Below, in pieces: positions 13,087-29,345 of a stretch of DNA of 64,000 bases (the stretch's first letter is position 1; each line of letters starts with the position of its first letter). The DNA is from Streptosporangium lutulentum (GTDB taxonomy: Bacteria; Actinomycetota; Actinomycetes; Streptosporangiales; Streptosporangiaceae). The stretch lies in contig NZ_JAUSQU010000001.1 of assembly GCF_030811455.1 (NCBI RefSeq), forward strand, positions 7,378,001 through 7,442,000, written 5' to 3'. Under the pieces are notes generated by a model. The model saw nothing but the letters and a program-made list of their open reading frames with translations, was not told the origin of the DNA and searched no databases. Made by a program: the position numbers and the translations under genes.

Positions 13087-13160
13087 CCAGCGCACGGTGA
13101 TCGGCGCCGGTCGCCGGACGTCACCGTGGAGGATGGGCGGCCGCGTGCAGCGGGAGCCGT
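13087..13160 (-). pseudogene. metE: metE fragment 2 (short middle piece between IS and element)
   Basis: On the minus strand this 74-base stretch reads [19 protein letters not shown] then ITVRW, the metE segment that normally links the QSYG motif to WARYAQ. It is trapped between the serine-integrase element (attL at 13,157-13,160) and the IS256 copy. Confidence 0.9.
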
Positions 13161-13175
13161 CGGACTGTAGGTCTC
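13146..13175. other. attL attachment site
   Basis: Junction of metE (left) and element (right). On the metE strand it reads CTACAGTCCG-ACGG-CTCCCGCTGC, where ACGG (13157-13160) is the core shared with attR. The metE frame is valid only from the core leftward. Confidence 0.8.
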
Positions 13176-13209
13176 CCAAACCCTCCAGCAATGACCTGAC
13201 ATAGAAAGA

Positions 13210-13246
13210 CGCCCCTAGCTGATTGACCGGGGGTTCTTTCTTCTTT
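13210..13246 (+). terminator. Hairpin plus pyrimidine tract near the left end
   Basis: CCCC and GGGG segments (13212-13232) can pair and are followed by TTCTTTCTTCTTT (13234-13246). The same pyrimidine tract recurs at several sites in the element, usually after a hairpin. It could stop transcription entering or leaving at attL. Confidence 0.4.
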
Positions 13247-13259
13247 ATGCGGGCTACCC

Positions 13260-13288
13260 CATATGAGCGGCGAATCGCCGCTTATATG
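13260..13288. repeat. Near-perfect palindrome at the element's left end
   Basis: CATATGAGCGGCGA (13260-13273), one base, then TCGCCGCTTATATG (13275-13288): 14-base arms with one mismatch, 100 bases from attL. The remaining sequence between attL and the first IS (13,161-13,329) shows no gene. Confidence 0.8.
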
Positions 13289-13333
13289 ACAGCCGTATTG
13301 TCTGCCATTCCACGAGGTGTGATTAACGCCTAA

Positions 13334-14989
13334 CCTCGATCTTTCGTGATCTTCGTGTGGTCGGCTGAAGCATTTGGCTGAGGCGTGATTTCGCTTCCTG
13401 GTCAGCGTGGTGGCCCGGCTGTCGCGCCGGGTGGGCGGGGTTCCACGAGCCCGTGGGTGTCCTTTCTTGGTCGGTGGAGCGGCTTGATGCTGGTCAGGGC
13501 GGTGCCGGCAGGGCTTGCAGGCGGGTGACGGCGGCGATGATCTGCGGTGCCCAGGGCCATCGGGCGGCGATGCGGAGCCGGAGCCGCCGGCCGCCGTGGA
13601 CCAGGCGTCCGGCGACGGCGAACAGGCGCAGCCGCAAGCGTTTGGGCTCCCAGCGGCGGGCCGGGCCCTGCAGGGCGAGCATCTGCATCCAGGCCATGAG
13701 GTCGCCGGCCAACGCGACGATCTCGCACCACATCTGGTTCTGGGTGAAATCGTGCAGCGGCAGGTTGCGCAGGCCGGTGTCCTTGGCGCAGCGGATGCGG
13801 TCCTCGGCGCGGGCGCGGCGACGATGGCGCAGCTCCAGATCGGCGAGCTGGCCTTGCTTGGTGTTGGTGACGAAACAGGTGAAGCGGTGCCCGCCGGGGT
13901 CGGTGAAGCGCAGCCGCGCACCGGGGTGCGGGCGCTCCCTGCGGACGATGACGCGCATGCCCTTGGGCCAGGAGGTCAGGTTCGCCAGGCCGGTGATCTC
14001 GGCGACCCAGGCGCCTGCTCTGACCTGCCCCTCGGCGTCGTAGGCGGGTGTCCACGCGCTGGCGGGCAAGCGACCGATCGCGGCGCCGATGTCGTCGGTG
14101 ATGGTGAAGCCGATGGAGTATTTCAACCACCGGCCTGGACGGGTCAGCCAGGTGAGGAACTCATGAGTGCCGCCGCCTGAGTCGGTGCGGATCAGAATCT
14201 GACGGCGTCGGGCCCGGGGCAGTTGGGCCAGGGCCAAGACGGTGGCGTTGATGTGGTCGGTGGCGGTGTTGGAGCCGGCGTTGCCCGCTCGCAGCACCAG
14301 GGCCAGTGGCTCACCGGCTCCGTCGGTGCCGTGGTCGGCGAAGGCGGTCATGGGGTGGAAGCCGAAGGTTTTCTTCCAGGTCGGGGTGGCGTTTTCCTTC
14401 TCAGAGTGGGCGATGACGATGGTGGCGTCCAGATCGATGGGGATCAGCTGGCCGTCGGCTCCGGGCGCGGCTGACGCGGCGAGGGTCCAGGCGTGTTCAC
14501 GGGCGATGGCGCGTGCGCGTCGAATCGCTTTCAGGGCTTTGGCGGTGTCGGTGGCGAGCCGGTCGATCAGCCGGGAGACGGTCGGGTCAGAGGCGATGGG
14601 GCCGAACAGTTCCGGCTGAGAGCGCAGTATCGCGATGTCGGCCAGGCAGTCGCCTCCCAGGGCGAGGCTGACGGCGAGATCAGCGATGATCTTTCCGGGA
14701 TCGTGGATCGCGCGGGCCGGTCGCCATCGTTGCAATTGCTCCGACAGGGCCTGGTCCAGGCCGGTGACGCGCAGCGTTTCCAGCAACAGCAGCGCGCCTG
14801 ATTGGGAGATGAGCCCGGAGCCGTCGGCGGACATGACGATCTTGGGTCGCGAAGCGATAGTCTTCACGTGAAAAGTGCCTCTTGAGCTGGTGTGGACGGG
14901 ACCTTAGACAAGTCCGATCATCCCAGTTCAAAGGCACTTTTCTCATGTAAACGATCAAGGCTGGCGATATTCACCGTGAAAGCCCGAGG
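13334..14989 (-). mobile_element. IS1380-family insertion sequence, copy A (1656 bp)
   Basis: Bounded by the inverted repeats CCTCGATCTTTC (left) and the complement of CCTCGGGCTTTC (right) and by a 4-base target duplication CTAA (13330-13333, 14990-14993), as expected for IS1380. It is oriented opposite to copy B at 15,235 and is practically identical to it. Confidence 0.93.
13494..14867 (-). CDS. IS1380-family transposase, copy A
   Basis: 457 residues, full length. The DDE triad lies in IPIDLDATIVIAHSEKENAT (first Asp), ILIRTDSGGGTHEFL (second Asp) and RAEDRIRCAKDTGL (Glu), all typical of IS1380. The start ATG (MKTIASRPKIVMSADGSG) follows a short leader just inside the IS end. Apparently intact. 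The protein is identical in sequence to that of copy B. Confidence 0.95.
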   Translation of the reverse strand: MKTIASRPKIVMSADGSGLISQSGALLLLETLRVTGLDQALSEQLQRWRPARAIHDPGKIIADLAVSLALGGDCLADIAILRSQPELFGPIASDPTVSRLIDRLATDTAKALKAIRRARAIAREHAWTLAASAAPGADGQLIPIDLDATIVIAHSEKENATPTWKKTFGFHPMTAFADHGTDGAGEPLALVLRAGNAGSNTATDHINATVLALAQLPRARRRQILIRTDSGGGTHEFLTWLTRPGRWLKYSIGFTITDDIGAAIGRLPASAWTPAYDAEGQVRAGAWVAEITGLANLTSWPKGMRVIVRRERPHPGARLRFTDPGGHRFTCFVTNTKQGQLADLELRHRRRARAEDRIRCAKDTGLRNLPLHDFTQNQMWCEIVALAGDLMAWMQMLALQGPARRWEPKRLRLRLFAVAGRLVHGGRRLRLRIAARWPWAPQIIAAVTRLQALPAPP

Positions 14990-14993
14990 CTAA

Positions 14994-15230
14994 CACTCCT
15001 GGTCACCGCCAAGGGTACGCACCAGTGCGTACCCCTTCTCCGAGCTGGGAGAGCCCCGCTGGAGCGCCGTCGGAGCCCCGATGCGGCACCCAACCCCGTC
15101 GAAGGGAACCGGATTTTCCTGGCCGGCCGTGACCGGGGCCGGCCTACGTCCTGGGAACCTCCACCCCTCTGACCTGCGACGGAAGAATTTCTTCGGGCAT
15201 ACCCGGACCTTTCGAGGTTTGTCCGCTCTA
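14994..15230. other. Element DNA between the two IS1380 copies
   Basis: No convincing gene. It holds a perfect hairpin, GGGTACGCA (15013-15021) / TGCGTACCC (15026-15034), followed by CTTCTCC, which resembles a terminator. The stretch is original element sequence; it is not cargo specific to a composite transposon. Confidence 0.6.
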
Positions 15231-15234
15231 TTAA

Positions 15235-16890
15235 CCTCGGGCTTTCACGGTGAATATCGCCAGCCTTGATCGTTTACATGAGAAAAGTGCCTTTGAACTG
15301 GGATGATCGGACTTGTCTAAGGTCCCGTCCACACCAGCTCAAGAGGCACTTTTCACGTGAAGACTATCGCTTCGCGACCCAAGATCGTCATGTCCGCCGA
15401 CGGCTCCGGGCTCATCTCCCAATCAGGCGCGCTGCTGTTGCTGGAAACGCTGCGCGTCACCGGCCTGGACCAGGCCCTGTCGGAGCAATTGCAACGATGG
15501 CGACCGGCCCGCGCGATCCACGATCCCGGAAAGATCATCGCTGATCTCGCCGTCAGCCTCGCCCTGGGAGGCGACTGCCTGGCCGACATCGCGATACTGC
15601 GCTCTCAGCCGGAACTGTTCGGCCCCATCGCCTCTGACCCGACCGTCTCCCGGCTGATCGACCGGCTCGCCACCGACACCGCCAAAGCCCTGAAAGCGAT
15701 TCGACGCGCACGCGCCATCGCCCGTGAACACGCCTGGACCCTCGCCGCGTCAGCCGCGCCCGGAGCCGACGGCCAGCTAATCCCCATCGATCTGGACGCC
15801 ACCATCGTCATCGCCCACTCTGAGAAGGAAAACGCCACCCCGACCTGGAAGAAAACCTTCGGCTTCCACCCCATGACCGCCTTCGCCGACCACGGCACCG
15901 ACGGAGCCGGTGAGCCACTGGCCCTGGTGCTGCGAGCGGGCAACGCCGGCTCCAACACCGCCACCGACCACATCAACGCCACCGTCTTGGCCCTGGCCCA
16001 ACTGCCCCGGGCCCGACGCCGTCAGATTCTGATCCGCACCGACTCAGGCGGCGGCACTCATGAGTTCCTCACCTGGCTGACCCGTCCAGGCCGGTGGTTG
16101 AAATACTCCATCGGCTTCACCATCACCGACGACATCGGCGCCGCGATCGGTCGCTTGCCCGCCAGCGCGTGGACACCCGCCTACGACGCCGAGGGGCAGG
16201 TCAGAGCAGGCGCCTGGGTCGCCGAGATCACCGGCCTGGCGAACCTGACCTCCTGGCCCAAGGGCATGCGCGTCATCGTCCGCAGGGAGCGCCCGCACCC
16301 CGGTGCGCGGCTGCGCTTCACCGACCCCGGCGGGCACCGCTTCACCTGTTTCGTCACCAACACCAAGCAAGGCCAGCTCGCCGATCTGGAGCTGCGCCAT
16401 CGTCGCCGCGCCCGCGCCGAGGACCGCATCCGCTGCGCCAAGGACACCGGCCTGCGCAACCTGCCGCTGCACGATTTCACCCAGAACCAGATGTGGTGCG
16501 AGATCGTCGCGTTGGCCGGCGACCTCATGGCCTGGATGCAGATGCTCGCCCTGCAGGGCCCGGCCCGCCGCTGGGAGCCCAAACGCTTGCGGCTGCGCCT
16601 GTTCGCCGTCGCCGGACGCCTGGTCCACGGCGGCCGGCGGCTCCGGCTCCGCATCGCCGCCCGATGGCCCTGGGCACCGCAGATCATCGCCGCCGTCACC
16701 CGCCTGCAAGCCCTGCCGGCACCGCCCTGACCAGCATCAAGCCGCTCCACCGACCAAGAAAGGACACCCACGGGCTCGTGGAACCCCGCCCACCCGGCGC
16801 GACAGCCGGGCCACCACGCTGACCAGGAAGCGAAATCACGCCTCAGCCAAATGCTTCAGCCGACCACACGAAGATCACGAAAGATCGAGG
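15235..16890 (+). mobile_element. IS1380-family insertion sequence, copy B (1656 bp)
   Basis: Same length and ends as copy A, in opposite orientation, with its own target duplication TTAA (15231-15234, 16891-16894). The only difference I noticed from copy A is a silent base (15779 A versus the base opposite 14445). Different target duplications show two separate insertions. Confidence 0.93.
15357..16730 (+). CDS. IS1380-family transposase, copy B
   Basis: 457 residues, identical in protein sequence to the copy A transposase, with the same DDE positions (IDLDATIV, IRTDSGGGTHEF, RAEDRIRCAKDTG). Being intact and near-identical to copy A points to recent transposition inside the element. Confidence 0.95.
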   Translation: MKTIASRPKIVMSADGSGLISQSGALLLLETLRVTGLDQALSEQLQRWRPARAIHDPGKIIADLAVSLALGGDCLADIAILRSQPELFGPIASDPTVSRLIDRLATDTAKALKAIRRARAIAREHAWTLAASAAPGADGQLIPIDLDATIVIAHSEKENATPTWKKTFGFHPMTAFADHGTDGAGEPLALVLRAGNAGSNTATDHINATVLALAQLPRARRRQILIRTDSGGGTHEFLTWLTRPGRWLKYSIGFTITDDIGAAIGRLPASAWTPAYDAEGQVRAGAWVAEITGLANLTSWPKGMRVIVRRERPHPGARLRFTDPGGHRFTCFVTNTKQGQLADLELRHRRRARAEDRIRCAKDTGLRNLPLHDFTQNQMWCEIVALAGDLMAWMQMLALQGPARRWEPKRLRLRLFAVAGRLVHGGRRLRLRIAARWPWAPQIIAAVTRLQALPAPP

Positions 16891-16894
16891 TTAA

Positions 16895-17228: not shown

Positions 17229-17543
17229 ATGCCCAGGAACCCGAACAACAGCAAGCCCTGCTCCTATCCGAATTGTGGACGTCCTAAGCACAGCAGGCAG
17301 TTGTGCGTGGGGCACTCCTCGATGATCCGTCGTCGGGAAGACCTCCGCCCCCTCGGTCGGCCCAAGGTCACGAAGGTCGATGCCAACGGCATGGTGCATT
17401 GTCCGGAGTGCCAGCAGCGCCTTAGCGCTGACAGCTTTCGCCAGAACCTGGCCTCGAAGCCTGGGGGCTTCGCCACCTACTGCACCCCCTGCGTGGCCAA
17501 GCGCAACGAGGCCCGACGCCTCAGCCGGAAGGCTGCCCAATAA
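17229..17543 (+). CDS. Small zinc-knuckle protein, 104 aa
   Basis: Starts ATG with AAAGG six bases upstream. The N-terminus holds C-SYPN-C-(9)-C-VG-H, a CxxxxC...CxxH knuckle also seen in two other proteins of this element. A second set, CPEC near 58 and CTPC near 88, forms a zinc-ribbon-like pair, so two metal sites are likely. The remainder is basic (RRREDLRPLGRPK, KRNEARRLSRKAA), compatible with DNA or RNA binding. Exact role unknown; such small Cys-rich proteins are frequent in actinophages. It is followed by a T-run terminator. Confidence 0.7.
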   Translation: MPRNPNNSKPCSYPNCGRPKHSRQLCVGHSSMIRRREDLRPLGRPKVTKVDANGMVHCPECQQRLSADSFRQNLASKPGGFATYCTPCVAKRNEARRLSRKAAQ

Positions 17544-17580
17544 CCCCACTGCGGCTAAGGCCGCCACCAACGACACCTGA

Positions 17581-17633: not shown

Positions 17634-17681
17634 ATGAAGCCCAAGCGACCCCGCAAGCGCAAGCGCCGGAGAAGACGATGA
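17634..17681 (+). CDS. 15-residue polybasic micro-ORF coupled to the next gene
   Basis: ATG AAG CCC AAG ... CGA TGA encodes MKPKRPRKRKRRRRR. AGGAG lies seven bases before the ATG, a stronger ribosome site than most here. Its stop overlaps the next start as ATGA (17678-17681). It may be a real basic peptide or a leader whose translation opens the next gene. Too short for homology. Confidence 0.45.
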   Translation: MKPKRPRKRKRRRRR

Positions 17682-18433
17682 CCACCGACCTCCTCACGAG
17701 AGCGCCCGCCCCCACTGCCAAGACCACCCCTAAGACCGTGACACACCCCCGACCGCAGATACGCACACTTGGAGAACTCGTGTTGGAAGCCCGTGAGATC
17801 GCTGCCGAGACCGGTGAGGTGCCGAGCCAGCGATACCTGAAGACCGCTCTCAACATCGGTGGTGCCCGAGCGAAGTTGGTGAGGGACAAGCTCGTGGCCG
17901 AGACGGAACCCGTACCTGAGGTTCCTGAGCCGGTGCCGGCCGAGCCTGGCGACGAGATCGCCCTGGGCGCACTGGACGCGCCCACCGAGACCAGCTCTAG
18001 ACGATCCCACAAGCTCGCTACCTGGCCTCTCGTCCTGCTGGCCATCCCCGCCTTCGTGGCCGTCTGGTCCGGCTGGGTGGGCCTCGGAGAGCTTGCCGGG
18101 TTCGGAGTGGTCCACCCGCTCCCTGGTATCGCGGATGGCTTCAGCATCAACACAGCGATCACCTTGCCGATCAGTCTGGAGGCGTATGGGGCGATCGCCC
18201 TCCGAGCATGGCTGAGCATGCCGAGAACCCACCGGGCTCACCGGTTCTCGAAGTGGAGCGCACTGATCTCGCTGCTCCTGGGGGCTCTTGGCCAAGTGGC
18301 GTATCACCTCCTCGTGAGCCTCGGCTATGAGGCTGCTCCGTGGGGGATCACGACCGCAGTAGCAACGCTCCCGGTCGCTGTGCTTGGCATGGGCGCGGCC
18401 CTCGCTCACATGATCAAAGAAGAGCGCTCGTGA
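17678..18433 (+). CDS. Membrane protein with N-terminal DNA-binding-like segment (DUF2637/Spd-like)
   Basis: 251 residues from MTTDLLTRAPAP. Residues about 28-65 (IRTLGELVLEAREIAAETGE, then SQRYLKTALNIGGARAKLVR) look like the helix-turn-helix found in actinomycete plasmid and phage proteins. A Pro/Glu linker leads to four membrane helices (LATWPLVLLAIPAFVAV onward to TTAVATLPVAVLGMGAALAHM), with the DUF2637-like stretch SLEAYGAIALRAWLS. Related proteins occur in conjugative and phage-like elements; no proven function. Start chosen by GGAGAAG five bases before ATG. It overlaps the next gene (GTGA). Confidence 0.6.
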   Translation: MTTDLLTRAPAPTAKTTPKTVTHPRPQIRTLGELVLEAREIAAETGEVPSQRYLKTALNIGGARAKLVRDKLVAETEPVPEVPEPVPAEPGDEIALGALDAPTETSSRRSHKLATWPLVLLAIPAFVAVWSGWVGLGELAGFGVVHPLPGIADGFSINTAITLPISLEAYGAIALRAWLSMPRTHRAHRFSKWSALISLLLGALGQVAYHLLVSLGYEAAPWGITTAVATLPVAVLGMGAALAHMIKEERS

Positions 18434-18640: not shown

Positions 18641-19297
18641 TTGATCGACACCGGCTTTGAGATCCCTGCTGACTACATGCCTCGTCCGCATTTCGTCCCG
18701 CCTATCGAGGCTGTCGAGCCTGACGAGCCCTGGGACTTCGACTACATGTTCGGGGTTGGAGCGCCGCTCCCGAGCTCCAGCACTCACGAGGACACCGAAT
18801 ACATCCTGAGTGACGAGGAGCTTGCGGACTTCCTGGAGTGGTCGTCCGCACAAACTGCTGAGGAGTCCACCGAGGCAGCTACCGAGGTCCCTGAGGCGGT
18901 GTTCATCGAGCCTGACACCGAGGGCTACGACATCACCTACATCGGCACGGAGCCTTTCAACCACGACAGCTTCCGGAAGCTGTCGGCCAAACGCCCCAAG
19001 CGCCTGAGCATGACCGACTACGAGGACATGTTCAGTAACGAGGAGCTGGATGCACTCCAGGCTTCCTGGTCCGTGGACGTAGAGCCTGCGCCCGACGAGA
19101 TGGAGTTTGCCAGCTTCGTGGTCAACCTCCATCGAGAAGCCTCACAGAACAAGGTCTCCGAGCGGCTGTCTGCTGAGTTCGGTGGGTCCAAGGAGAAGTT
19201 CCGGAAGATGTTCCACCGCAAGAAGATCCCCATCGTCAGGGCAAACACAGCGTGGTGCTTCACCGGCGAGTACCGGTGGATACAGCACGAACTGTGA
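18641..19297 (+). CDS. Acidic hypothetical protein, 218 aa
   Basis: TTG start supported by AGGAG seven bases upstream; reads LIDTGFEIPADYMPRPHFVP. The first 150 residues are strongly acidic and low in structure (ILSDEELADFLEWSSAQTAE, MTDYEDMFSNEELDAL; two related EEL segments). The last 60 residues are basic and helical (LHREASQNKVSERLSAEFGG, KEKFRKMFHRKKIPI), suggesting a C-terminal DNA-binding helix-turn-helix. I do not recognise the family. It lies in the same operon as the two genes before it. Confidence 0.6.
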   Translation: MIDTGFEIPADYMPRPHFVPPIEAVEPDEPWDFDYMFGVGAPLPSSSTHEDTEYILSDEELADFLEWSSAQTAEESTEAATEVPEAVFIEPDTEGYDITYIGTEPFNHDSFRKLSAKRPKRLSMTDYEDMFSNEELDALQASWSVDVEPAPDEMEFASFVVNLHREASQNKVSERLSAEFGGSKEKFRKMFHRKKIPIVRANTAWCFTGEYRWIQHEL

Positions 19298-19748: not shown

Positions 19749-20324
19749 ATGACCACCACACCCCACGGCCACGTCACCCTGCGCTGCCAGCACGCAACCT
19801 GCGGGCGCAGCTTCCACCACCCCAGAGGCCGGGGCCGATACCCGTCCTACTGCTCCACGGCCCACCGCAAGGCGGGCAGGACCGAGTACCTGGCCTCCAG
19901 GGACCGCTCCTACGAGAAGTGCTCACACTGCTCCAAGATCGCGGAGCTGACATGGGGCGGCCGGGAGTACTGCTCACCCATCTGTTTCGGTGTCGCCTCC
20001 TTGATGGCTCAGGGAGAGACCCAGGAGGCCGCTGAGGTCGCTGTGGCGGCCCTCATCACCAATGACCCCGTATTGGCATCCAGACGCCCGGTAAGGCGTC
20101 CTGGAGCCCCTGAAGATGACCCCGAGAAATACGGCTTCACCAAACGCTCTCTGCGTCGGCTCGATGCTCACGAAATGTATGACGGCTACAGCGTCCAGTC
20201 CAAAAGCACTTACCTGGGCGGAGATCTGGGACCGGATGAAGGCCGGACTCGTCTGGGCCTTTACTCACCGAATCTCAAGGACCACGAATGGTTCAAGAGT
20301 CATCCGGGTTGGTGGAAGTCTTGA
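19749..20324 (+). CDS. Double zinc-finger hypothetical protein, 191 aa
   Basis: ATG start. First finger: LRCQHATCGRSFHHPRGRGR then YPSYCSTAHR (CxxxxC, then CxxxH). Second: KCSHCSKIAELTWGGREYCSP with ICF (CxxC, CxxxC). This resembles FCS/MYM-like treble-clef fingers. A helical middle (GETQEAAEVAVAALITND) and a polar C-terminus follow. It may bind nucleic acid or be an adaptor in the satellite's take-over of a helper; no function can be named. A hairpin with a pyrimidine tract follows. Confidence 0.65.
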   Translation: MTTTPHGHVTLRCQHATCGRSFHHPRGRGRYPSYCSTAHRKAGRTEYLASRDRSYEKCSHCSKIAELTWGGREYCSPICFGVASLMAQGETQEAAEVAVAALITNDPVLASRRPVRRPGAPEDDPEKYGFTKRSLRRLDAHEMYDGYSVQSKSTYLGGDLGPDEGRTRLGLYSPNLKDHEWFKSHPGWWKS

Positions 20325-20843: not shown

Positions 20844-21044
20844 ATGACGTACAAGCACATGATTGAGACCGCCGCTGATCTGAATCGCTGGGAGCCCGAG
20901 GACCTGGATGCCTTCCTCGCCGTCGATGAGCACAACGCTGAGCACAGCGTTGGCGTCCCGCCCATCATCAACCCGGCCCTTGGCCTGGTGCTGGTGTACC
21001 GCCCGGTTGGCTACATCACCGAGCCCGTCACCGCCGTCGCCTGA
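20844..21044 (+). CDS. Small hypothetical protein, 66 aa, first gene of the capsid operon
   Basis: ATG with GAGGGG nine bases upstream. Reads MTYKHMIETAADLNRWEPED and ends GLVLVYRPVGYITEPVTAVA. Acidic N-terminal helix, then a beta-like hydrophobic C-terminus. No domain recognised. The HNH gene starts seven bases after its stop, so it belongs to the HNH-scaffold-capsid operon. Confidence 0.65.
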   Translation: MTYKHMIETAADLNRWEPEDLDAFLAVDEHNAEHSVGVPPIINPALGLVLVYRPVGYITEPVTAVA

Positions 21045-21050: not shown

Positions 21051-21860
21051 ATGCCCAAGGCCCCTTCCAAATGCTTGACGGATGGCTGCCGGAAAGTAGC
21101 CATCAAACAGGGTCGATGTGACATCCACTATGTGCCCTGGTCGGTGACCAGTCCGCGGAATCTGACGCGGCCGAAGAACGCAGCCACCCTGATCCGGCGA
21201 GTACGAGTCCGAGACCGGGAGCGCTGTTATCTCTGTGGCGGCCCCGGCCGCATCGTTGACCACATCACCCCAGTTGCCGAAGGCGGCACCTGGGATATGG
21301 CCAATCTGGCCTGCTGCTGTGGGCCATGTCACCGCACCAAGACTCGTGAGGAGTCCTCACGAGGGCGGTCGCGCAACAAATGGCCTATGACACTTCTTTC
21401 TTCCTTCTTGAGAGGACACCAAATGGATGCCAATCCGGGGACGGGTGACACTCCCGTCGCCGTTCCGGAAACCCCCACACCGGTAGGTGAAGAGAGCGCT
21501 TCGTTCGAGGAACGGTGGAAGGCAACCAGCGCCGAACTGGAGGCCGTCAACGCCAGGAACGCCGAGATGGAGCAGGCTCTCGCCAATATCGAGGCTGAGC
21601 GGACGCGAAAGCTCATCTACGACGAGTTCGCCCAGGCCGGCAAGGCGCGGGGAATTGAGCTGAACGAGGCAGTGCTTGAAGGGCTCGACCTGTCGGCCTT
21701 TGCGGCCGATGGGGCGGTGAACGGTGAGGCGATTGCCGACCTCATGGACCTCTTCGCTCCCGTTCTTCCGCGCTTCTCCCAGAGCCTCGGTATCGGCCCG
21801 CAAAGGTCTAGCAAAATCCCTGACGCCAAGCTCTCACTCGATGTCCGAGCGCGACGCTAA
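21051..21860 (+). CDS. HNH endonuclease fused in frame to a scaffold-like domain
   Basis: 269 residues. N-terminal zinc knuckle CLTDGC-(9)-CDIH; then HNH nuclease: RVRVRDRERCYLCGGPGRIV, DHITPVAEGG, NLACCCGPCHRTKT (about 45-105). In tailed phages an HNH protein next to capsid/terminase genes aids DNA packaging. From about residue 125 the protein changes to an acidic, coiled-coil part (ERWKATSAELEAVNARNAEM, EQALANIEAERTRK) ending in a basic tail, typical of scaffolds placed just before a capsid gene. No stop separates the two parts, but an internal start (see nested entry) may make the scaffold separately. Confidence 0.75.
   Translation: MPKAPSKCLTDGCRKVAIKQGRCDIHYVPWSVTSPRNLTRPKNAATLIRRVRVRDRERCYLCGGPGRIVDHITPVAEGGTWDMANLACCCGPCHRTKTREESSRGRSRNKWPMTLLSSFLRGHQMDANPGTGDTPVAVPETPTPVGEESASFEERWKATSAELEAVNARNAEMEQALANIEAERTRKLIYDEFAQAGKARGIELNEAVLEGLDLSAFAADGAVNGEAIADLMDLFAPVLPRFSQSLGIGPQRSSKIPDAKLSLDVRARR
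21423..21860 (+). CDS. Nested scaffold-like protein, 145 aa, same frame as HNH
   Basis: ATG 21423 (MDANPGTGDTPVAVPETPTP) is preceded by GAGAGG about eight bases upstream. The product begins with the acidic Pro/Thr-rich segment, then the coiled coil, then a domain (IYDEFAQAGKARGIELNEAV) and a basic C-terminus, the usual layout of scaffolding proteins, whose basic tail binds coat protein. The layout recalls scaffolds translated from inside a larger gene in lambda-like phages. The capsid gene follows 24 bases later. Confidence 0.6.
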   Translation: MDANPGTGDTPVAVPETPTPVGEESASFEERWKATSAELEAVNARNAEMEQALANIEAERTRKLIYDEFAQAGKARGIELNEAVLEGLDLSAFAADGAVNGEAIADLMDLFAPVLPRFSQSLGIGPQRSSKIPDAKLSLDVRARR

Positions 21861-21884: not shown

Positions 21885-22805
21885 ATGGCACTCACTCCAA
21901 TGCCCCCCTATCAGCACGTCGGCACCGGCTCGTTCATTCCCACTCAGTGGAGTGACGAACTCCTCCGGCAGTTCGACCCGCTGCTCGTCTGGTCCTCGTC
22001 CCTGGTTTGTAACCGCAACTACGAGGGCGAGATCAGCGGTAAGGGCGACCGGGTCGTGGTCAACGGCATTATCCGGCCCAGCGTCGGCAAGTACGAAGAC
22101 ACCGTGGGCATGACGATCGAGGACCTGAAGACCGTCGAGCAGCACGTGGACATCACCGAGGCCGACTATGTGGCCTTCTATGTCCGCGACATCGAGCGGG
22201 TTCAGGTCGCCGGGGTTCTCGGTGCCCCGGCCACGCAGGAGTCCATCCAGGCTCTGGTCAACGAGACTGACACCTTCGTCGGTGCCAAGATCGCGGCCTC
22301 CGCCACCTCGGCCGCTCAGGTGGACGTGAGCACCCTCACCGCGAGCCGCGACAAGGGCGAGGCGCTCCTGGAGACCATCTTCGACATGATGGAGAAGCTC
22401 GACACCGCCAATGTGGCGGACGGGCGGTATGTGGTCGTCTCACCGAAGGTGAAGCGCTACCTGCTGCGCGCCCCGGACATCGCCAACGCCGCCGCCCTCG
22501 GCGAGGGTCAGGCCACCGCCAACGGCGTGGTTGCTCGGCTGGCCGGCTTCACGGTGGTCAGCACCACGGCGATGCCTGCCGGCTGTGAGATTCTCGCAGG
22601 CCACAGGTCGTTCACTACCTTTGCCAGCCAGTTCACGAACTTCCGTGAGCAGCCGGTGGAGCAGTTCCGCCGCAACCAGATCGATGCCCTGCACCTGTAC
22701 GGTGCGCGGGTGCTGTCCTTCCCTGGAGGCAAGCAGCCCACCGCCCCCGGCGCTGCCGTGGTCGGCTCCGAAGGGCTGATCAAGGCCGTCGTCAAGTGGT
22801 CCTGA
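21885..22805 (+). CDS. P22-type phage major capsid protein
   Basis: 306 residues with AAAGGA nine bases before ATG. The pattern LVCNRNYEGEISGKGDRVVV, IRPSVGKYEDTVGMTIEDLK, VDITEADYVAFYVRDIERVQ and, later, RYVVVSPKVKRYLLR, LAGFTVVSTTAMP, DALHLYGARVLSFP matches the P22 coat/HK97-fold family. The coat protein would assemble the icosahedral shell on the scaffold. No portal or terminase gene is adjacent: a strong terminator follows 28 bases on. Carrying a coat gene alone is unusual and points to a satellite that builds its own (perhaps smaller) shell with a helper's remaining parts. Confidence 0.85.
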   Translation: MALTPMPPYQHVGTGSFIPTQWSDELLRQFDPLLVWSSSLVCNRNYEGEISGKGDRVVVNGIIRPSVGKYEDTVGMTIEDLKTVEQHVDITEADYVAFYVRDIERVQVAGVLGAPATQESIQALVNETDTFVGAKIAASATSAAQVDVSTLTASRDKGEALLETIFDMMEKLDTANVADGRYVVVSPKVKRYLLRAPDIANAAALGEGQATANGVVARLAGFTVVSTTAMPAGCEILAGHRSFTTFASQFTNFREQPVEQFRRNQIDALHLYGARVLSFPGGKQPTAPGAAVVGSEGLIKAVVKWS

Positions 22806-22833: not shown

Positions 22834-22875
22834 AGCCCCGAGCTTGTCCTTTGTGGACGGCTCGGGGCTTTTTTG
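22834..22875 (+). terminator. Strong intrinsic terminator after the capsid gene
   Basis: AAGCCCCGAGC (22834-22844) pairs perfectly with GCTCGGGGCTT (22861-22871), followed by TTTT. It closes the capsid operon, arguing that no downstream structural genes were ever part of it. Confidence 0.92.
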
Positions 22876-22961
22876 CGTTGTAGCCCAGTAGCAGCTTCAG
22901 GGGCGCAGGCCCCACACACATGGATCGGACTGACGCGAGCTGGAGCTGGCGGCCGTGAAAG

Positions 22962-23684
22962 TCAGTAGCATGGTGTGATTTCTTTGACCTCTGTCGGCTC
23001 AAGGCCGCCTATGTCATCTCCCAGCCAGTCGTTGCCAAGGGGTTTGTAGACTCCGTCGGCTGGATCTACTGGCCACAAAGTTCCTCCTACGATTTCGTCG
23101 AACTTGCTGGCGAATCGGTAGGAGACGCCTTTGATGCTGGATTCACTGCCCTCTGGCGGGAGGGCTGTCACAAGAGCTTGAGTGCAAGGCGCGATGTCAT
23201 ACGCATAGAAGCGTAGGGGCGGATCGGGTTCTGCTGCCGAGTGGTAACCGACACCGAGGTACAGAGTCACGTTGTGCGAATTGCCGTTCCGAACCCGCCA
23301 ACTCTCACCCTCTCCTGGTTTCCGTAGAGCACCACCCCGGACGGTCACGCGTCTAGCAAAGGCGGATTTCTCCTTGGCGTCGGCCTCCGCCTTATCCTCC
23401 GCCCGGTGCTTTCGGGCGTCGTCTTGCTGCTGTTGACTGATCTCCAATGCGTTCATGGAGATGACGATCGCGGGGATGGACATGAGACCAGCGATGAAGG
23501 TGGAGAGGGCTGCTAACCATTGGACGTTCCAGCGGCCGTCGCTGAGCCGTTTTCTCCGGCGTGGCCGTGAGGGGAATGTGAAACGCCTGGTGGCCCGAGC
23601 AGAAGGGCGGGGGTTGGCACCTTGCGGCGGTGGCTTGCGGGGGGTCACCGGCCCAGTATTCCGAGGTGAAGTGTATCTAGTCAC
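22962..23684 (-). CDS. Single-pass membrane protein, unknown function
   Basis: About 240 residues from GTG 23684 (VTRYTSPRNTG); AAAGG lies some 11 bases upstream. A basic Pro-rich cytoplasmic start leads to a membrane helix at about 54-80 (VQWLAALSTFIAGLMSIPAI), a charged coiled-coil stretch (QQQQDDARKHRAEDKAEADA), and a beta-rich extracellular domain (SHNVTLYLGVGYHS). No family recognised. The frame is open further upstream up to the ISAs1 insertion; rejoining across that IS keeps it open, so a longer product before the insertion is possible. It runs against the capsid operon. Confidence 0.5.
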   Translation of the reverse strand: MTRYTSPRNTGPVTPRKPPPQGANPRPSARATRRFTFPSRPRRRKRLSDGRWNVQWLAALSTFIAGLMSIPAIVISMNALEISQQQQDDARKHRAEDKAEADAKEKSAFARRVTVRGGALRKPGEGESWRVRNGNSHNVTLYLGVGYHSAAEPDPPLRFYAYDIAPCTQALVTALPPEGSESSIKGVSYRFASKFDEIVGGTLWPVDPADGVYKPLGNDWLGDDIGGLEPTEVKEITPCY

Positions 23685-23787: not shown

Positions 23788-25207
23788 AGCCAGACCCCAG
23801 GGCCCCGGCATAGTGGCGTTGAATGATGTGATGTCCGGTTCGCGGAGTGACGGACGCGAAGCCGGCCGGTAAGCAAGCAGGCACGATCTTCGAGATCATG
23901 AGGTTCTCTACGCCAAATGATCAGAGAAGGCCGTGCCTGCCCCCTCATCATTGCCGATCAACCCTGCCCTGAACCAACTGGCCGAAGTGAGCTGCGACTC
24001 CATGCCCGTCGTAGTCGCCGAGTACGCCAGCCTGCTGGATCAGTTACGGCAGGTTCCCGATCCGCGCGATCGACGCGGGATCCGACACGCGCTGGCTTCG
24101 GTACTGGCAGTGGCCGCAGCGGCGGTCCTGGCCGGAGCGCGGTCCTTCACCGCGATCGGCGAATGGATCGCTGATGCTCCAGTCCAGGTCCAGGCCATAT
24201 TGGAGGTCAGACGCGACCCCGTGATCGGAGCTCATCGGCCACCACACGAGGCGACGATCCGCCGGTTGCTGGAGGTTGTCGACGCCGACATGCTCGATGC
24301 GATCCTCACTGGGTGGCTGACCGCCCGCCTGCAGATACACGCCGAAAGCGCCCCGACATCCGGGCGCGGCCGACAACGCCAGGCCATCGCGGTGGATGGC
24401 AAGGCGCTACGCGGTGCTCGCCTGGCCGAACACAGCACCGTGCACCTGCTGGCCGCCTTCGATCACAACTCCGGCTTGGTGCTGGCCCAGACCGACGTGG
24501 ACGGCAAAACGAACGAGATCACCCGATTCCAGCCCCTGCTGGAAGGTCTTGACCTGGACGGATGTGTCCTCACCGCCGACGCGCTGCACACCCAGCGCGA
24601 TCATGCCACCTTCCTGGTGACCAAGAAGAACGCCCATTACATACTGATCGTGAAGAAGAATCAGCCCAGCCTGCACACCCAGCTCAAACGCCTGCTGTGG
24701 AAACGGGTCCCCATTGCCGACCGCCGGCGCGATCGCGGACACGGCCGCGAGGAACGCCGCACGCTGAAGGTGCTCACCGTCAAAGCCGGCCTGCTCTTCC
24801 CGCACGCTGTCCAAGCCATGCAGATCAAACGCCAGGTCAGGGATCTGAAGCAGGGCAAATGGCGAACCGTGACCGTCTACGCCATCACCAGCCTGCCCAC
24901 CTGGCAGGCCAGCCCCGCCGACCTCGCCGCATGGATCCGCGGCCACTGGAGCATCGAAAATCGGCTCCACTACGTCCGCGACGTCACCTACGGCGAGGAC
25001 CACTCCCAAGCCCGCACCGGCAACGCACCCCGCAACATGGCCGCCCTGCGCAACCTCGCCATCGGCGTTCTGCGCCTGACCGGCGCGACCAACCTCGCCC
25101 AGGCCATCCGGCACCTCTCCCGAGACGCCACCCGCCCTCTGGCCCTCCTCGGCCTCACATGATCAAGAGCCGCCCAACCGACTTTGCCGGGGCCCTGAGC
25201 CAGACCC
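23788..25207 (+). mobile_element. ISAs1-family insertion sequence (1400 bp) with 10-bp target duplication
   Basis: IS spans 23798-25197 with 13-base inverted repeats CAGGGCCCCGGCA / TGCCGGGGCCCTG. It is flanked by the perfect direct repeat AGCCAGACCC (23788-23797 and 25198-25207). Intact and recently inserted by appearance. Confidence 0.95.
23933..25162 (+). CDS. ISAs1-family transposase
   Basis: 409 residues, GTG start with AGAAGG upstream. Landmarks: [32 protein letters not shown] (first Asp), [13 protein letters not shown] (second Asp), [13 protein letters not shown], and the C-terminal [20 protein letters not shown] (Glu). Full length and undamaged, unlike the related broken copy at 37.4-38.6 kb. 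Confidence 0.95.
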
Positions 25208-25339
25208 GTACGTTCTCGGAGGAGGCAAGACCTTTGGGCTCGCGTGCGCGTGAGCCTAGGCACCCCCCCCACCCCTGCTGACCTGTGGGGACGCCCCGCG
25301 CCCCACGCCCTAGGCCACGCAGAGAGAGCAGTCCACCAC

Positions 25340-25694: not shown

Positions 25695-25830
25695 GGCGAG
25701 AGCACAGCAGAGCGGAGCAGAGCAGGCGGAGTGAGCGGAGTGCCGAGCCGCGGAGTGCTGAGCTGAGAGTGGCGCTGAGCGAAGCTGAGCTGCGGCGAGA
25801 GTAGCGGTGGTGACCGAGGAGGGAGAGTGC
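25695..25830. repeat. Purine-rich irregular repeats (GCGGAG / GCTGAG units)
   Basis: GAGCGGAG, GCAGAGC, GCGGAGTG and GCTGAGC units repeat at irregular 6-12 base spacing. Together with the pyrimidine block upstream this gives marked strand asymmetry. No gene. Confidence 0.6.
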
Positions 25831-25897
25831 AGTGCACCCACCCTCCGAGGCGAGAGCTGCCAGTGGAGAGTGCGCCGTGAGGGCGGCGCTACAGGAT

Positions 25898-26000
25898 CGG
25901 GTTTACGGATACGAACGGGTTTATGGACACGGGTTTGAGGATCGGGTTTATGGATGTGGTTCGGGTTTGTGGATACGGCCCACAGCTCGGGTTTGAGGAC
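25898..26000. repeat. Iteron-like array, six copies of CGGGTTTNNGGA
   Basis: CGGGTTT begins at 25898, 25916, 25930, 25943, 25962 and 25988, each followed by two variable bases and GGA (acGGAtacg, atGGAcacg, gaGGAtcgg, atGGAtgtg, gtGGAtacg, gaGGAcctt), spaced 18, 14, 13, 19 and 26 bases. All are in one orientation. This looks like iterons of a replication origin or a multi-site operator. Confidence 0.8.
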
Positions 26001-26057
26001 CTTGCCGGCCAGAGCTACCCGTCACTACTAATGACGTGTGGTCGTGCAGGTCAGAGC

Positions 26058-26572
26058 AAGTATCGGTCTGACCGATACTTTCCGTGGCAGCGCCACCTGG
26101 GTCCATCGGTATGTGGGAGAGGCCGAAGGCATCCGCGATGTGGATGCGTTCGCCAGTACGCAGGTCAGAAGGTGTGCTGTTAGAGCACCCCTGGCGGAGG
26201 GTGTGCGCCCCGTCCCAGGCCAGGCAAGGGTAACGAATCGTTACCCTTGCGGGAATGGGTGGCGTAGCGTCACTCATACGACGTTTGCCCAGCTCAGATA
26301 CTCCGTACTTTAATCACCCCTTCGATAGACGGACATTTTGTCCGTCATACGGCGTCATCCCAGGCCAGGGGCATGTTAGTGCCGACGCTAAGATGCTCCA
26401 GCTCAGAGGCATGTTACTGAGCCCAGTAACTTGTTCCCGGTTGGCCGGCCAGCCCAGGCTAATCCGGTGATTAACCTGGCTGACCTGGTGTTCGTTGACT
26501 GAATCCCACTCTGGTTATTAAAGAACCAGAGTGCATCGCCGCAGCTCAGGACCATATTCGGGAGGTCCCGAA
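26058..26572. promoter_or_regulatory. Array of eight distinct palindromes
   Basis: In order: AAGTATCGGT/ACCGATACTT (26058-26080); GCAAGGGTAACGA/TCGTTACCCTTGC (26224-26250); GACGGACA/TGTCCGTC (26328-26346); GTTAGTG/CGCTAAG (26375-26392, imperfect); GTTACTG/CAGTAAC (26413-26430); CCAGGcTAATC/GATTAaCCTGG (26454-26479); ACTCTGGTT/AACCAGAGT (26508-26532); TTCGGGA/TCCCGAA (26557-26572). Short direct repeats (CCCAGGCCAGG, CAGCTCAG) lie between them. No gene is present. Probable operators and/or replication-packaging signals. Confidence 0.7.
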
Positions 26573-26590
26573 AAAGGTGCCAACGATCTC

Positions 26591-26827
26591 CTAGCGGTCG
26601 CCATAGCTGACGCATGCGCTGGCGCGCATCTTGACCTTGGCCAGGGCCTGGTCCACCAACCGGCCCAACTCCCCCAGGTCGTGGAGCATCCTGGCGCGGT
26701 CCAGCTTCTCCCAGTCACGGATCACGGCCGGCACATCCTTCGCCTGCCTGGCAGCGACGGTGATGTGCTGGCCGGTGCCCTCTCTTACAGCCACGTTCCC
26801 GATGATGGTCCAGTCCCGAAGCGCCAC
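26591..26827 (-). CDS. Small hypothetical protein, 78 aa
   Basis: GTG 26827 with GGAGGT about ten bases upstream. Reads VALRDWTIIGNVAVREGTGQ then HITVAARQAKDVPAVIRDWE; beta-rich first half, amphipathic helical second half (KLDRARMLHDLGELGRLVDQ). No family recognised. It is second in a leftward pair with the 52-residue gene and ends next to the palindrome array, a position typical of early control proteins. Confidence 0.5.
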   Translation of the reverse strand: MALRDWTIIGNVAVREGTGQHITVAARQAKDVPAVIRDWEKLDRARMLHDLGELGRLVDQALAKVKMRASACVSYGDR

Positions 26828-26899
26828 GTCTCCGACCTCCGAAGCTCCGAGCCATCAGGCTCGGTAGATGTATTTAAGTGCGCCTAGATGTAGTAACCC

Positions 26900-27058
26900 T
26901 CAGATCCACGAAATCCCACGCTGCTTGCTGGGGCCAGCCTCCAGCTCCATGCCCCGCAGCCATGCTGCGATTCCCTCATCGGCGATCTTGCGGAGGAGTA
27001 GGGTCAGCAACCGCTGCTCACGCGACAGGTCCACCAGGTACATGTCCATGCAGTGCAT
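26900..27058 (-). CDS. Small leucine-rich helical protein, 52 aa
   Basis: ATG 27058 reads MHCMDMYLVDLSREQRLLTL, then LLRKIADEGIAAWLRGMELE and ends KQRGISWI. Starts at Met4 or Met6 are possible; no strong ribosome site is visible. Composition and codon use look coding. It is divergent from the GntR gene across the promoter region with paired repeats. Function unknown. Confidence 0.45.
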   Translation of the reverse strand: MHCMDMYLVDLSREQRLLTLLLRKIADEGIAAWLRGMELEAGPSKQRGISWI

Positions 27059-27144
27059 GGTAGCCGTATCTAGGTGTATTAAACCATCACTATGTGTATC
27101 GCAGTGTCTTAGCGTGTGGCTATGTTGAGGATAATACGGCTACC
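27059..27144. promoter_or_regulatory. Divergent promoter bracketed by an 11-base inverted repeat
   Basis: GGTAGCCGTAT (27059-27069) and ATACGGCTACC (27134-27144) are exact complements, 75 bases centre to centre (about seven turns). GATAAT (27130-27135) could be the -10 of the GntR gene and TTTAAT on the other strand the -10 of the leftward genes. A two-site operator for the GntR protein is likely. Confidence 0.55.
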
Positions 27145-27158
27145 TACGGTGGCGTCTT

Positions 27159-27416
27159 GTGACCGCCATCCATCCCCAGCGCTCCAAGTGGAAGCAGGCG
27201 TTCAGGGCCATCAAGGAGCGAATCCGCTCTGGCGAGCTGGCTCCTGGAGATCGCGTGCCTACGGTGCATGAGCTGATGGCTGAGTTCGAGATGTCGAACA
27301 CCGTGGCGCAGAAGGTCCACAAGGCCCTCCGTGAGGAGGGCCTGGTCGAGACCGAAGTGGGGACCGGCAGCTACGTCCTGGAAGGCGCAGCGGAGAAGAT
27401 CGAGGCTGCGGAGTAG
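27159..27416 (+). CDS. GntR-type winged-helix regulator, 85 aa, no ligand domain
   Basis: GTG start. WKQAFRAIKERIRSGELAPG, DRVPTVHELMAEFEMSNTVA, then QKVHKALREEGLVETEVGTG and SYVLEG form a complete GntR winged helix; there is no C-terminal effector domain. It is the only obvious transcription factor of the element and lies between the divergent promoter and the integrase, the typical spot for the lysogeny/induction switch. It may bind the 11-base repeats flanking its own promoter. Confidence 0.82.
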   Translation: MTAIHPQRSKWKQAFRAIKERIRSGELAPGDRVPTVHELMAEFEMSNTVAQKVHKALREEGLVETEVGTGSYVLEGAAEKIEAAE

Positions 27417-27435
27417 GGCCTTGCGTGGCACCCCT

Positions 27436-27606
27436 GATCAAGAAGAAAGAAGTCCATCGAGGGTTGCCGGCCACCGCAGCTAAGGCTCCGGTGCGCACAC
27501 GACTCCCCCGATATGAAGAAGAAAGAAGTAGGTACCGTCCAGGCGGTACCCCCCGCCACATGGGCCACCCCCGAGAGAGAAGAAAGAAGTGGGGGCACCG
27601 TCGTGG
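27436..27606 (-). terminator. Three tandem hairpin/pyrimidine terminator-like units
   Basis: On the minus strand three hairpins are each followed by ACTTCTTTCTTCT: GGTACCG/CGGTACC with its tract at 27517-27529; GGGGGTACC/GGTGCCCCC with its tract at 27577-27590; and a weaker GGTGGCCGGCAACC with its tract at 27441-27453. They lie just past the integrase stop and would stop integrase transcripts before the convergent GntR gene. Confidence 0.5.
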
Positions 27607-27628
27607 TACCCCCAGCCTCTAGCAGCTC

Positions 27629-29260
27629 TTAAGCCCTCTTCATGGCGGCCTCCCTCATAGCCGCCTCAAGCTCCCTCTGTTCCGCCACGGCCTCCCCTGC
27701 CCAGCGCTTGGCCTCCTGTAGGTAGCCGGGTTCCACGGTGTCGGAGAACGCGTCGTTGATGCGTCGCTGGAGGTCTCCGGGAAGGAGCAGTTCCAGGTCT
27801 GGAGCGTTCGGGCTTCCGCCCACGTACATCCGGACGCCGGTCTTGCGCAGCAGGGCGGCGCGAGTCTTCCAGTCCGGGTTACGCTCCCAGAACTCGCGGA
27901 AGGTCTCACCAGTGCCTGTCTCGACCCACCGGGACGGAACCACGGGCAGGGCCTCCAGCTCGGCGAGAGCTGCTTCGTGGTCCTCCATGGCCTTGATGAC
28001 TGCGTTGGCTGAGGCGCTGCCGGGCTTCATGTGGACGAGGTTGCCCGTCAGGTTGTTCAGGGCTTCCTTGAGCTGGTTGATGTCGGATGTCCGGTCGGAG
28101 CCGGGGACGTAGGTCTTGTTGGTGATCTCCAGGCCGCCAGCGATGGTGAGGAACATCTCCTCCAGGTGCATTTGCAGAACCTCCCGCAACCAGGAGGTTG
28201 CGTACTGGCACTTGTGGTCGGTCCACTGGGTCTTGCAGATGTACCAGTTGTAGGTCTTCGCTGGGACTGTCTTCCTCTTCTTGGTGGACGAGCTGCCGTG
28301 CAGCACCTCGCCGCACCGGCAGTGGAAGACGCCGGCCAGATCTGTGGTCCTTCGGTCCACGCCTCGCTGTGATGCGCCGCGAAGGTTTACGACGTCCTGT
28401 AGCTGTTTAAATTCCTCGGGGGTGAGGATCTCCTCGGCCCACTGCACCGGTAGGCCGTTCTTCTTCTGGATCTCGCCCTTGTGGACCGCGTAGCCCATCA
28501 GGGCTGAGTTGGTCAGGACCGACCTGATCGAGTTGGTCCGCCACTTGGTACCCACAGGCGTGTTCGAGACGTTCTCGCGGCCGTTGAGGGCGTTGATGTG
28601 CCTCTGGTGGTCGCGGGCGGTCATGATGCCACGGGCGTTCCAGTCGTCGGCGATGCCGCCCATGGAGCCGTTTTTGTTCACCAGGCGCTCGTAGGCTTCC
28701 CGGATGAGGGGGCCTGTGATGGGGTCGATGTCGAGACGCCAGCGCGGCGTCTCTTTGTGCTCGATGCGGATCGCCCGGTAGCCGAAGGGCCAGGAGCCGC
28801 CTGACCAGAGCTGTTCATCCCGGAAATATTCGAGCTGGTCCAGGCGCTTTTTGACGACGTCGTTGCGGTAGTTGGCTGCCTGTGTGGCCTTGATGTGGGC
28901 GATCATTCGGCCGTTGGGGGTGGACAGGTCGAAGGCAGGGTCGTCGAGGACGATGACGGTCTTGTCGTTCTCCATCACGAAGCCGACGAAGGCGGCCCAG
29001 TGAAGGTCGTCTCGGGTGATCCGGTCCTGGGCTGTGACCATCATGCCGTCCCACTCGTGGATCAGTGGTGACACGAGCCACTTGGCCAGAGAGGGCCGCT
29101 TGTCCAGGTTGATCGAGCCGGAGACGGTGGCGTCCTCTACCCAGCCTGCGAGGGTGTGGTTGCCCTTCCTGACGGCCTCTGAGAGTCGGACGTCTTGGCG
29201 CTCCAGCGCCGATGACTGCTCTGTGTCCCTGCTGATCCGCTTGACTGCCAGCACGCGCAC
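27629..29260 (-). CDS. int: Large serine recombinase (integrase) of the element
   Basis: 543 residues from GTG 29260, chosen by AGGAGG five bases upstream and because the catalytic domain begins there (VRVLAVKRISRDTEQSSALE, nucleophile Ser about residue 10). Later landmarks: resolvase arginine region, LVSPLIHEWDGMMVTAQDRI, recombinase domain (GGSWPFGYRAIRIEH, IRSVLTNSALMGYAVHKGEI), zinc ribbon (VFHCRCGEVLHG, WYICKTQWTDHKC) and a coiled coil near 410-450. It catalyses attP x attB integration into metE. It is next to attR, as usual. Length is normal for the family. Confidence 0.95.
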   Translation of the reverse strand: MRVLAVKRISRDTEQSSALERQDVRLSEAVRKGNHTLAGWVEDATVSGSINLDKRPSLAKWLVSPLIHEWDGMMVTAQDRITRDDLHWAAFVGFVMENDKTVIVLDDPAFDLSTPNGRMIAHIKATQAANYRNDVVKKRLDQLEYFRDEQLWSGGSWPFGYRAIRIEHKETPRWRLDIDPITGPLIREAYERLVNKNGSMGGIADDWNARGIMTARDHQRHINALNGRENVSNTPVGTKWRTNSIRSVLTNSALMGYAVHKGEIQKKNGLPVQWAEEILTPEEFKQLQDVVNLRGASQRGVDRRTTDLAGVFHCRCGEVLHGSSSTKKRKTVPAKTYNWYICKTQWTDHKCQYATSWLREVLQMHLEEMFLTIAGGLEITNKTYVPGSDRTSDINQLKEALNNLTGNLVHMKPGSASANAVIKAMEDHEAALAELEALPVVPSRWVETGTGETFREFWERNPDWKTRAALLRKTGVRMYVGGSPNAPDLELLLPGDLQRRINDAFSDTVEPGYLQEAKRWAGEAVAEQRELEAAMREAAMKRA

Positions 29261-29310
29261 ACGTTCCTCCTGGTGGTCGCCCTGATTCCAGGCTACACGG
29301 AAGTTTGGGT

Positions 29311-29345
29311 AGAGGACAATCCGACCCGTACGACTGCACCCAGCC
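29311..29345. other. attR attachment site
   Basis: On the metE strand: GGGTGCAGTCGT-ACGG-GTCGGATTGTCC; core at 29326-29329. The metE frame (GWVQSYG) is valid up to the core. Combining element halves of attL and attR gives an attP with CCGAC-GG-GTCGG symmetry, and the central GG is a plausible non-palindromic crossover dinucleotide. Confidence 0.8.

Follow-up and report, generated by a model that had tools for sequence, protein, structure and literature searches.

We describe a putative phage satellite in the actinomycete Streptosporangium lutulentum, found in a stretch of 64,000 nucleotides that will be called the window (assembly GCF_030811455.1, contig NZ_JAUSQU010000001.1, positions 7,378,001 to 7,442,000 of the forward strand), where it is inserted in the gene metE. 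The element encodes an integrase, a major coat protein and a scaffold protein, it has 14 relatives, and neither a portal gene nor a gene for the large terminase subunit (TerL) was recognised in any of these 15 elements by our own profiles. We judge, with a probability of roughly three in four, that it is a helper-dependent satellite whose small shell is its own product, with the portal, the packaging motor and the tail borrowed from another phage.

The ends of the element are defined by the insert-free metE of a same-genus genome (locus L137 of genome G014; loci carry L numbers and genomes G numbers throughout), which reads GTGCAGTCATACG|GTTCCCGCTGCACG at the site of insertion, with the two halves separated in the window and ACGG present at both junctions. 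The insert that splits the gene at 13157/29329 measures 16.2 kb, or about 11.5 kb without its insertion sequences (ISs), and corresponds to the general description of a phage satellite, a small integrated element with a recombinase and attachment (att) sites. The G+C content is mostly 0.59–0.66 inside the element and 0.67–0.75 to its left; this is weak evidence for an insert, because the stretch further right also drops (0.63–0.69). The features on which the argument depends are the following:

13157..13160, no strand: attR core ACGG, the element end inside metE (sequence and empty site in L137)
21051..21422, plus strand: HNH endonuclease (Pfam HNH, 8.9e-08), continuing in frame into the scaffold
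21423..21860, plus strand: scaffold protein (own scaffold profile, 7.5e-53, the window row being included in that profile)
21885..22805, plus strand: major coat protein of the HK97 fold, 306 amino acids (aa) (PHROG_267, PDB match, AlphaFold model)
22836..22876, plus strand: terminator-like inverted repeat with a T run after the coat, with similar repeats after the coat in L055–L057
27159..27416, plus strand: small GntR-type regulator (Pfam GntR, 1.5e-16; 44% identity to L112 and 35% to the element L063)
27629..29260, minus strand: serine integrase (PHROG_95, 5.2e-74)
29326..29329, no strand: attL core ACGG, the other element end inside metE (sequence and empty site in L137)

The coat matches PHROG_267, major head protein, at 6e-39, and its best solved relative is gp6 in PDB entry 8e16 (4.2e-20). 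An AlphaFold model made with a 70-row alignment has a pLDDT of 79.6 and a pTM of 0.76, and a Foldseek search with this model places 8e16, from phage Che8, first among the HK97-fold capsids (1.4e-15). The scaffold is 35–43% identical to the same-position proteins of seven relatives, and PHROG_4708, head scaffolding protein, is matched by eight of the 122 proteins of the relatives (among the best 25 of 63 families). HNH and scaffold lie in a single open frame, 21051–21860, with no stop between them and a ribosome-site-like internal ATG at 21423, an arrangement that may represent either a fusion or an internal start. The sequence-only reading of the window had already reported a serine integrase, exact ends inside metE, a size of about 11.4 kb (16.2 kb with three ISs), an HNH nuclease, a scaffold-like partner of the coat and a strong terminator, and all of these hold. 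Its "P22-type coat" stands as a coat; P22 is a family name in the NCBI annotation of relatives, and no P22 label occurs among the 13 matched PDB sequences.

That same reading had also stated that portal, terminase and tail genes are missing, and had called for profile searches of the small proteins for such functions, which gave a concordant answer. When the 87 open reading frames (ORFs) of 50 aa or more of the window were compared with PHROG, with the ISs and the integrase frame excluded, no portal, TerL or tail family was present among all 24 families matched at E 1e-4 or better, nor among the best 25 of the 38 families at E 0.01, and the sole match to a family named "terminase small subunit" falls on the HNH domain. 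The TerL and portal profiles, which were built from nine rows that include the six control phages, match none of the 15 elements, and they recognise six phage loci outside the profile (L227, L232, L236, L237, L238 and L240). Among the 122 other proteins of the relatives, all 23 Pfam families found at E 1e-5 include a small terminase, but no large terminase, portal or tail. Once integrase, coat, helicase and three proteins that carry another Pfam domain (hemC-like, DUF3631 and HTH_36) are set aside, every called gene in the 14 relatives encodes at most 286 aa; the portal genes of the compared phages encode 410–514 aa. The portal, TerL and tail genes expected of a self-sufficient temperate phage were thus not found.

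The coat was used to search 341 genomes of the bacterial family, with matches in 36 genomes (41 rows). These rows were classed as 15 elements (the window, L054–L064, L067, L235 and L239), 15 phages in which the profiles find TerL and portal (L065, L066, L068, L069, L070, L073, L115, L118, L120, L227, L232, L236, L237, L238 and L240), eight phages recognised by their gene run alone (L071, L072, L226, L228–L231 and L233), a broken fragment that accounts for two rows (L234) and one unclassed 3-kb contig (G036). All coat relatives at 58–79% identity, together with L063, L064 and L067 at 34–38%, lie in compact elements, and two IMG/VR contigs with a coat 49–50% identical bring the family of the window to 15 elements, the window included. 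No close relatives were found in phage or plasmid records, where the best coat is about 31% and the best helicase 34% identical, and so far the satellite family is known from one actinomycete family and these two contigs.

Direct repeats of 16–41 bp, one copy beside the integrase, flank nine of the 12 genome elements examined at a spacing of 9.7–13.1 kb, and in four of the nine they lie in tRNA-Val. No chance level was set for these repeats, and the 16-bp pair of L054 is weak because pairs of 14–17 bp also occur away from integrases; the ends of L057, L058, L059 and L235 were placed by visual inspection, and no ends were found on the contigs L104 and L105. The integrase is of the serine type in some relatives and of the tyrosine type in others, and three of these elements share a single genome, G187. 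By our own profiles the coat is present in 15/15 elements, a helicase in 13/15 (all except the window and L063) and the scaffold in 12/15; 10, 7 and 8 elements, respectively, went into these profiles and match by construction, and 5, 6 and 4 matches are new. The helicases are mostly of the DUF3987 type; four elements have a split helicase and two have none, and these splits and absences may reflect decay, replacement or assembly error. The small terminase subunit (TerS; PHROG_1496) was found in three relatives, among the matches listed. The sequence-only reading had regarded a coat-only satellite in an actinomycete as unusual: the type of element was indeed found, but it is no lone oddity, being one of a family of 15. 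Its suggestion that the same gene set would be bounded by other att sites is borne out by the nine repeat-bounded elements at differing sites, and the close relatives, those with coats at 58–79% identity, are compact integrated elements and not the remains of a full prophage that it had named as the finding that would speak against it.

A few members of the family deserve separate mention. The coats of L057, L058, L059 and L060 are closely related, those of L057 and L059 being near-identical, and the helicases of these four elements are of two types, with 91% versus 45–47% identity to that of L056, which suggests mosaic exchange. A porphobilinogen deaminase (hemC-like) gene, possibly cargo, lies inside the repeat-bounded satellite L062 (L062:11468-12499). 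L109, in genome G234, has a helicase 74% identical to that of L054 in apparently the same chromosomal neighbourhood, and with no coat match in that genome it is perhaps a decayed copy.

The coats of the family form one group in every tree that was built: against 26 phage coats (support 97/87, 96% of bootstrap trees), against 71 other coats (98/88, 97%) and in a tree of 54 that takes in more loci from the bacterial family (99/90, 98%), from which L001 was left out as a duplicate of L226. The tree against 71 other coats took in 45 of 80 loci; some of these 80 could be unrecognised satellites, because 47 of them show neither the TerL nor the portal profile within a 3-kb flank. Judged from these trees, the coat lineage is separate from the compared phage coats. 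In the tree of 54, six full prophages (L066, L115, L118, L120, L236 and L238) have coats that join the satellite coats with a support of 97/92, and their status as a sister group depends on the root, because all the coat trees are rooted at the midpoint and in the tree with 26 phage coats the prophage group falls on the other side of the root. The coat is under purifying selection, as indicated by dN/dS values of 0.09–0.27 among the eight nearest coats (28 pairs), and the scaffold gives 0.21–0.38 in eight pairs with dS under 0.9.

Two further elements, L239 and L235, were found through weak coat matches. L239 (L239:5026-13095) spans 8.0 kb between 34-bp repeats and carries an integrase, scaffold, coat, TerS and GntR; L235 (L235:5300-13400) carries a serine integrase, HNH, coat, TerS and GntR, and no flanking repeat was found for it. 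Neither has TerL or portal by profile, although the profiles do pick up L237 and L240, the phages whose coats are closest. In the tree of 54 the coats of L239, L235, L237 and L240 form a cluster with a support of 100/100 that is far removed from the first lineage, and coat-bearing, portal-less elements would therefore most simply have arisen at least twice, since the coats of L239 and L235 group apart from the 15-member lineage. The repeat of L239 resembles the end of a tmRNA gene, and a smpB-like gene lies nearby, both being recognised by eye.

The same bacterial family contains full prophages, which have TerL, a portal, a scaffold and a distantly related coat and in several cases a helicase as well; those with TerL and portal include L113–L115 (G158), L222 (G005), L118 (G294) and L120 (G169). 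Over 541 aa, the integrase of the window shares 66% identity with its counterpart in the same-genus full prophage L222, and the HNH of the window is 67% identical to the HNH of L222 and 71% to that of L115, with 26–58% identity between satellite and prophage helicases and about 20–30% between satellite and full-prophage coats. L054 and prophage L113 share 842 bp at 84.6% DNA identity, and beside the helicase of L060 (L060:6054-6815) there is a stretch like the end of TerS and another like the start of TerL of L115, resembling a copy taken from a related phage. Satellites and full prophages also have in common a non-coding element of about 110 bp, situated after the coat and before the helicase in the satellites and before the run of early genes in the full prophages (L055:11629-11761; L111:1001-1126; also in L113). 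Its profile, built from six sequences that it finds and in which L106/L111 and L107/L113 look like the same phages, gives weak further matches in L056, L057, L058, L060, L061, L067 and L109, and no match at E 0.01 in L059, L062, L063, L064, L104 or L105. Because integrase, HNH, helicase and non-coding element are common to them and the satellites, the full prophages represented by L115 and L222 are the likely helper type.

On this basis the following course of events can be proposed. The element would excise when a helper phage becomes active, and would replicate from its iterons or from the conserved non-coding region, most relatives adding their own helicase. Coat and scaffold would assemble a small shell fitted to about 11 kb of DNA, this shell would take up the portal of the helper, and the large terminase of the helper would load the satellite DNA, with a satellite TerS in some relatives and with HNH perhaps assisting; a helper tail would complete the particle. 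Two mechanisms are possible, of which borrowing of every part except the shell is one, given the precedent of SaPIbov5 and its protein Ccm, in the parts of that report consulted, for a coat-bearing satellite without a portal.

Several points weigh against this reading. The sequence-only reading, in which a helper-dependent element makes its own shell and borrows the rest, is supported with no particle, excision or helper observed so far, and we know of no shell shown to take a foreign portal. The window copy has no helicase, contains three ISs and has its HNH running into the scaffold; its scaffold pairs give dN/dS of 0.34–0.69 at dS above 1.2, too diverged for a clear selection test, and the scaffold profile finds no match in L062, L064 and L067. 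In the host genome there is no match to our TerL and portal profiles or to PF04860 and PF03354, other terminase families not having been searched, and in ten satellite-bearing genomes the same two profiles match only in G158 and G306. These profiles miss eight coat-bearing loci taken as phages by their gene runs, so that their silence alone is no proof of absence. Finally, PHROG_15528, labelled "portal protein", is matched among the proteins of the relatives at 3.2e-10 (best 25 of 29 families at 1e-7). We rejected this match as a portal because it falls on a NUDIX protein, that of L105, over model stretch 490–650 only, and because the family rings in all 14 control genomes. The label of PHROG_15528 can mislead annotation, its matches here being confined to one NUDIX-like stretch.

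The rival that deserves most attention is capsid redirection, in which the satellite coat would enter the helper shell at some positions and shrink it, the helper coat still being needed. We consider it unlikely, with a real precedent in its favour: Ccm of SaPIbov5, a coat homologue encoded by the satellite, shares 24% identity with the coat of the helper, according to the portion of the report used here (PMC8569155), and the satellite coats are about 20–30% identical to full-prophage coats. The rival stays because three elements show no scaffold match, whereas a full own shell is favoured because the scaffold adjoins the coat, as it does in 12/15 elements, and Ccm, as far as the same portion describes it, suffices alone for redirection. 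An interference element, whose coat and scaffold would serve as a defence by poisoning the assembly of the helper while the element itself transferred little or not at all, could be reconciled with a coat kept under selection and a host genome without a matching helper; we give it the least credence of all, since the integrases, the differing att sites, TerS in some relatives and the mosaic exchange fit an element that transfers.

Decay of a full prophage, with the present genes remaining after loss of the rest, is in our view very improbable. It could account for the three ISs and missing helicase of the window copy, for the split helicases of four relatives and for the leftovers of a TerS–TerL junction that L060 retains, but the same compact layout recurs at different sites with flanking repeats, one coat group stands apart from phages with its coat under purifying selection, and one genome holds three copies. 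A degraded prophage should find the same coat in full prophages at similar identity; here the matches at 58–79% are all in elements and the best phage records reach about 31%. The relatives, the coat trees and the selection analysis accordingly led us to reject a prophage remnant, and the family as a whole speaks against decay, while an individual copy, that of the window included, could be dead. A satellite with its own shell and a borrowed portal, motor and tail is thus the reading that we retain.

Like the capsid-forming phage-inducible chromosomal islands (cf-PICIs), the elements described here are small integrated satellites with a coat of their own, and the coats of cf-PICIs appear as clades nested in the tree of phage coats (PMC11389934). 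By the definition quoted in the relevant excerpt of PMC10690885, a cf-PICI encodes its portal, protease, connectors and the two subunits of the terminase, whereas no portal or TerL was recognised here in 15/15 elements, and cf-PICIs need a helper for tails only, whereas portal and TerL were not found here either. The Streptomyces satellites Mulch and Flayer are likewise actinomycete satellites with their own coat, scaffold and HNH; in what could be consulted of their description they carry portal, TerS and TerL, have no primase homologues and were isolated with virulent helpers (PMC10690885), and the elements considered here differ from them in that no portal or TerL, and thus no full structural module, was found and in that they mostly have a DUF3987-type helicase.

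SaPIbov5 is not known to carry a portal or TerL of its own. It resembles the present elements in having a coat homologue without either, and it differs in that the coat here lies beside a scaffold gene and belongs to another coat family; in the portion of its report seen, Ccm fills only pentamers and forms no shell alone, and small shells result (PMC8569155). The full prophages are near in other respects, with neighbouring coats in L115, L118 and L120, the non-coding element in L113, the integrase in L222 and a shared HNH and helicase, but L113–L115, L222, L118 and L120 differ by the presence of portal and TerL. The consulted part of an actinobacterial prophage survey suggests that small elements may be satellites (PMC10023795), the excerpted account of hitchers reports them in genomes without any possible helper (PMC11389934), and a search of titles and abstracts in the open-licence literature found no publication on a coat-plus-scaffold satellite without a portal in actinomycetes.

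In the literature compared, as far as the texts available go, shell-making satellites bring their own portal and motor and size-redirecting ones use the helper coat, and a satellite with a shell and without a gate is intermediate between these two kinds. It remains an even matter, in our estimate, whether portal-less shell-making is a satellite strategy of its own, in which the coat and scaffold of the satellite itself form a complete small shell that takes in a portal and motor of foreign origin, and which arose at least twice in one actinomycete family, in the 15-member lineage next to its likely helpers and in L239/L235 among other phages. The question raised is whether a portal is able to start a shell built from the coat of a different lineage, and the family, placed in rare actinomycetes, offers natural pairs of satellite and related phage, G158 holding both (satellite L056 and prophage L113–L115), so that this question is testable.

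The remaining features of the element are listed below.

13331..14990, minus strand: IS copy 1, transposase ORF 13494–14867, inner end approximate
15220..16893, plus strand: IS copy 2, inverted, transposase ORF 15357–16730, inner end approximate
17229..17543, plus strand: p1, a small Cys-rich HNH / endonuclease VII-like protein (weak PHROG matches, best 6.6e-05)
17678..18433, plus strand: p2, a probable membrane protein read by eye (no Pfam or PHROG match)
18641..19297, plus strand: p3, 218 aa (coding score; no Pfam or PHROG match)
19749..20324, plus strand: p4, a Cys-rich protein (35–47% identity to relatives in L063, L064 and L067)
20844..21044, plus strand: p5, 66 aa (53–54% identity; relatives directly upstream of the coat in L064 and L067)
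22962..23600, minus strand: p8, a possible membrane protein (ORF extending to 23951; no Pfam or PHROG match; not called by the gene finder)
23798..25197, plus strand: ISAs1-like IS bordering on the conserved non-coding element; its target duplication is 10 bp long, AGCCAGACCC
25190..25300, plus strand: conserved non-coding element, common to satellites and full prophages, its first 8 bases being the IS end
25897..25999, plus strand: six iterons, WCGGGTTTRNGGA, 6 found versus 0.03 expected

Protein p2 has a weak kinship to a protein of the same-genus element L063 (33%, E 0.001). The non-coding element at 25190..25300 is a candidate replication or control site, and the iteron pattern had been selected after an earlier inspection and was then counted against expectation; neither of these two sites, at 25.2–26.0 kb, had been mentioned in the sequence-only reading. 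Matches to structural RNA in the element number six in Rfam at E up to 1, none reaching the gathering score. The ISs inside the element consist of two inverted copies of one IS, which we take to be IS1380-like, with an exact inverted match between 13331–14444 and 15780–16893 and identical ORFs of 457 aa, and of one IS at 23798..25197 that is presumably ISAs1-like. Loss of a helicase through the insertion of the latter was considered and is unsupported, because this IS has its 10-bp target duplication.

A further IS256-like copy (11768–13054) lies within metE and outside the element, so that metE (10974–13160 and 29326–31067) is interrupted twice, once by this copy and once by the element. A second metE was not matched in the host genome at 1e-50, and for the B12-dependent methionine synthase domain the same genome gives two matches, each containing one TGA.

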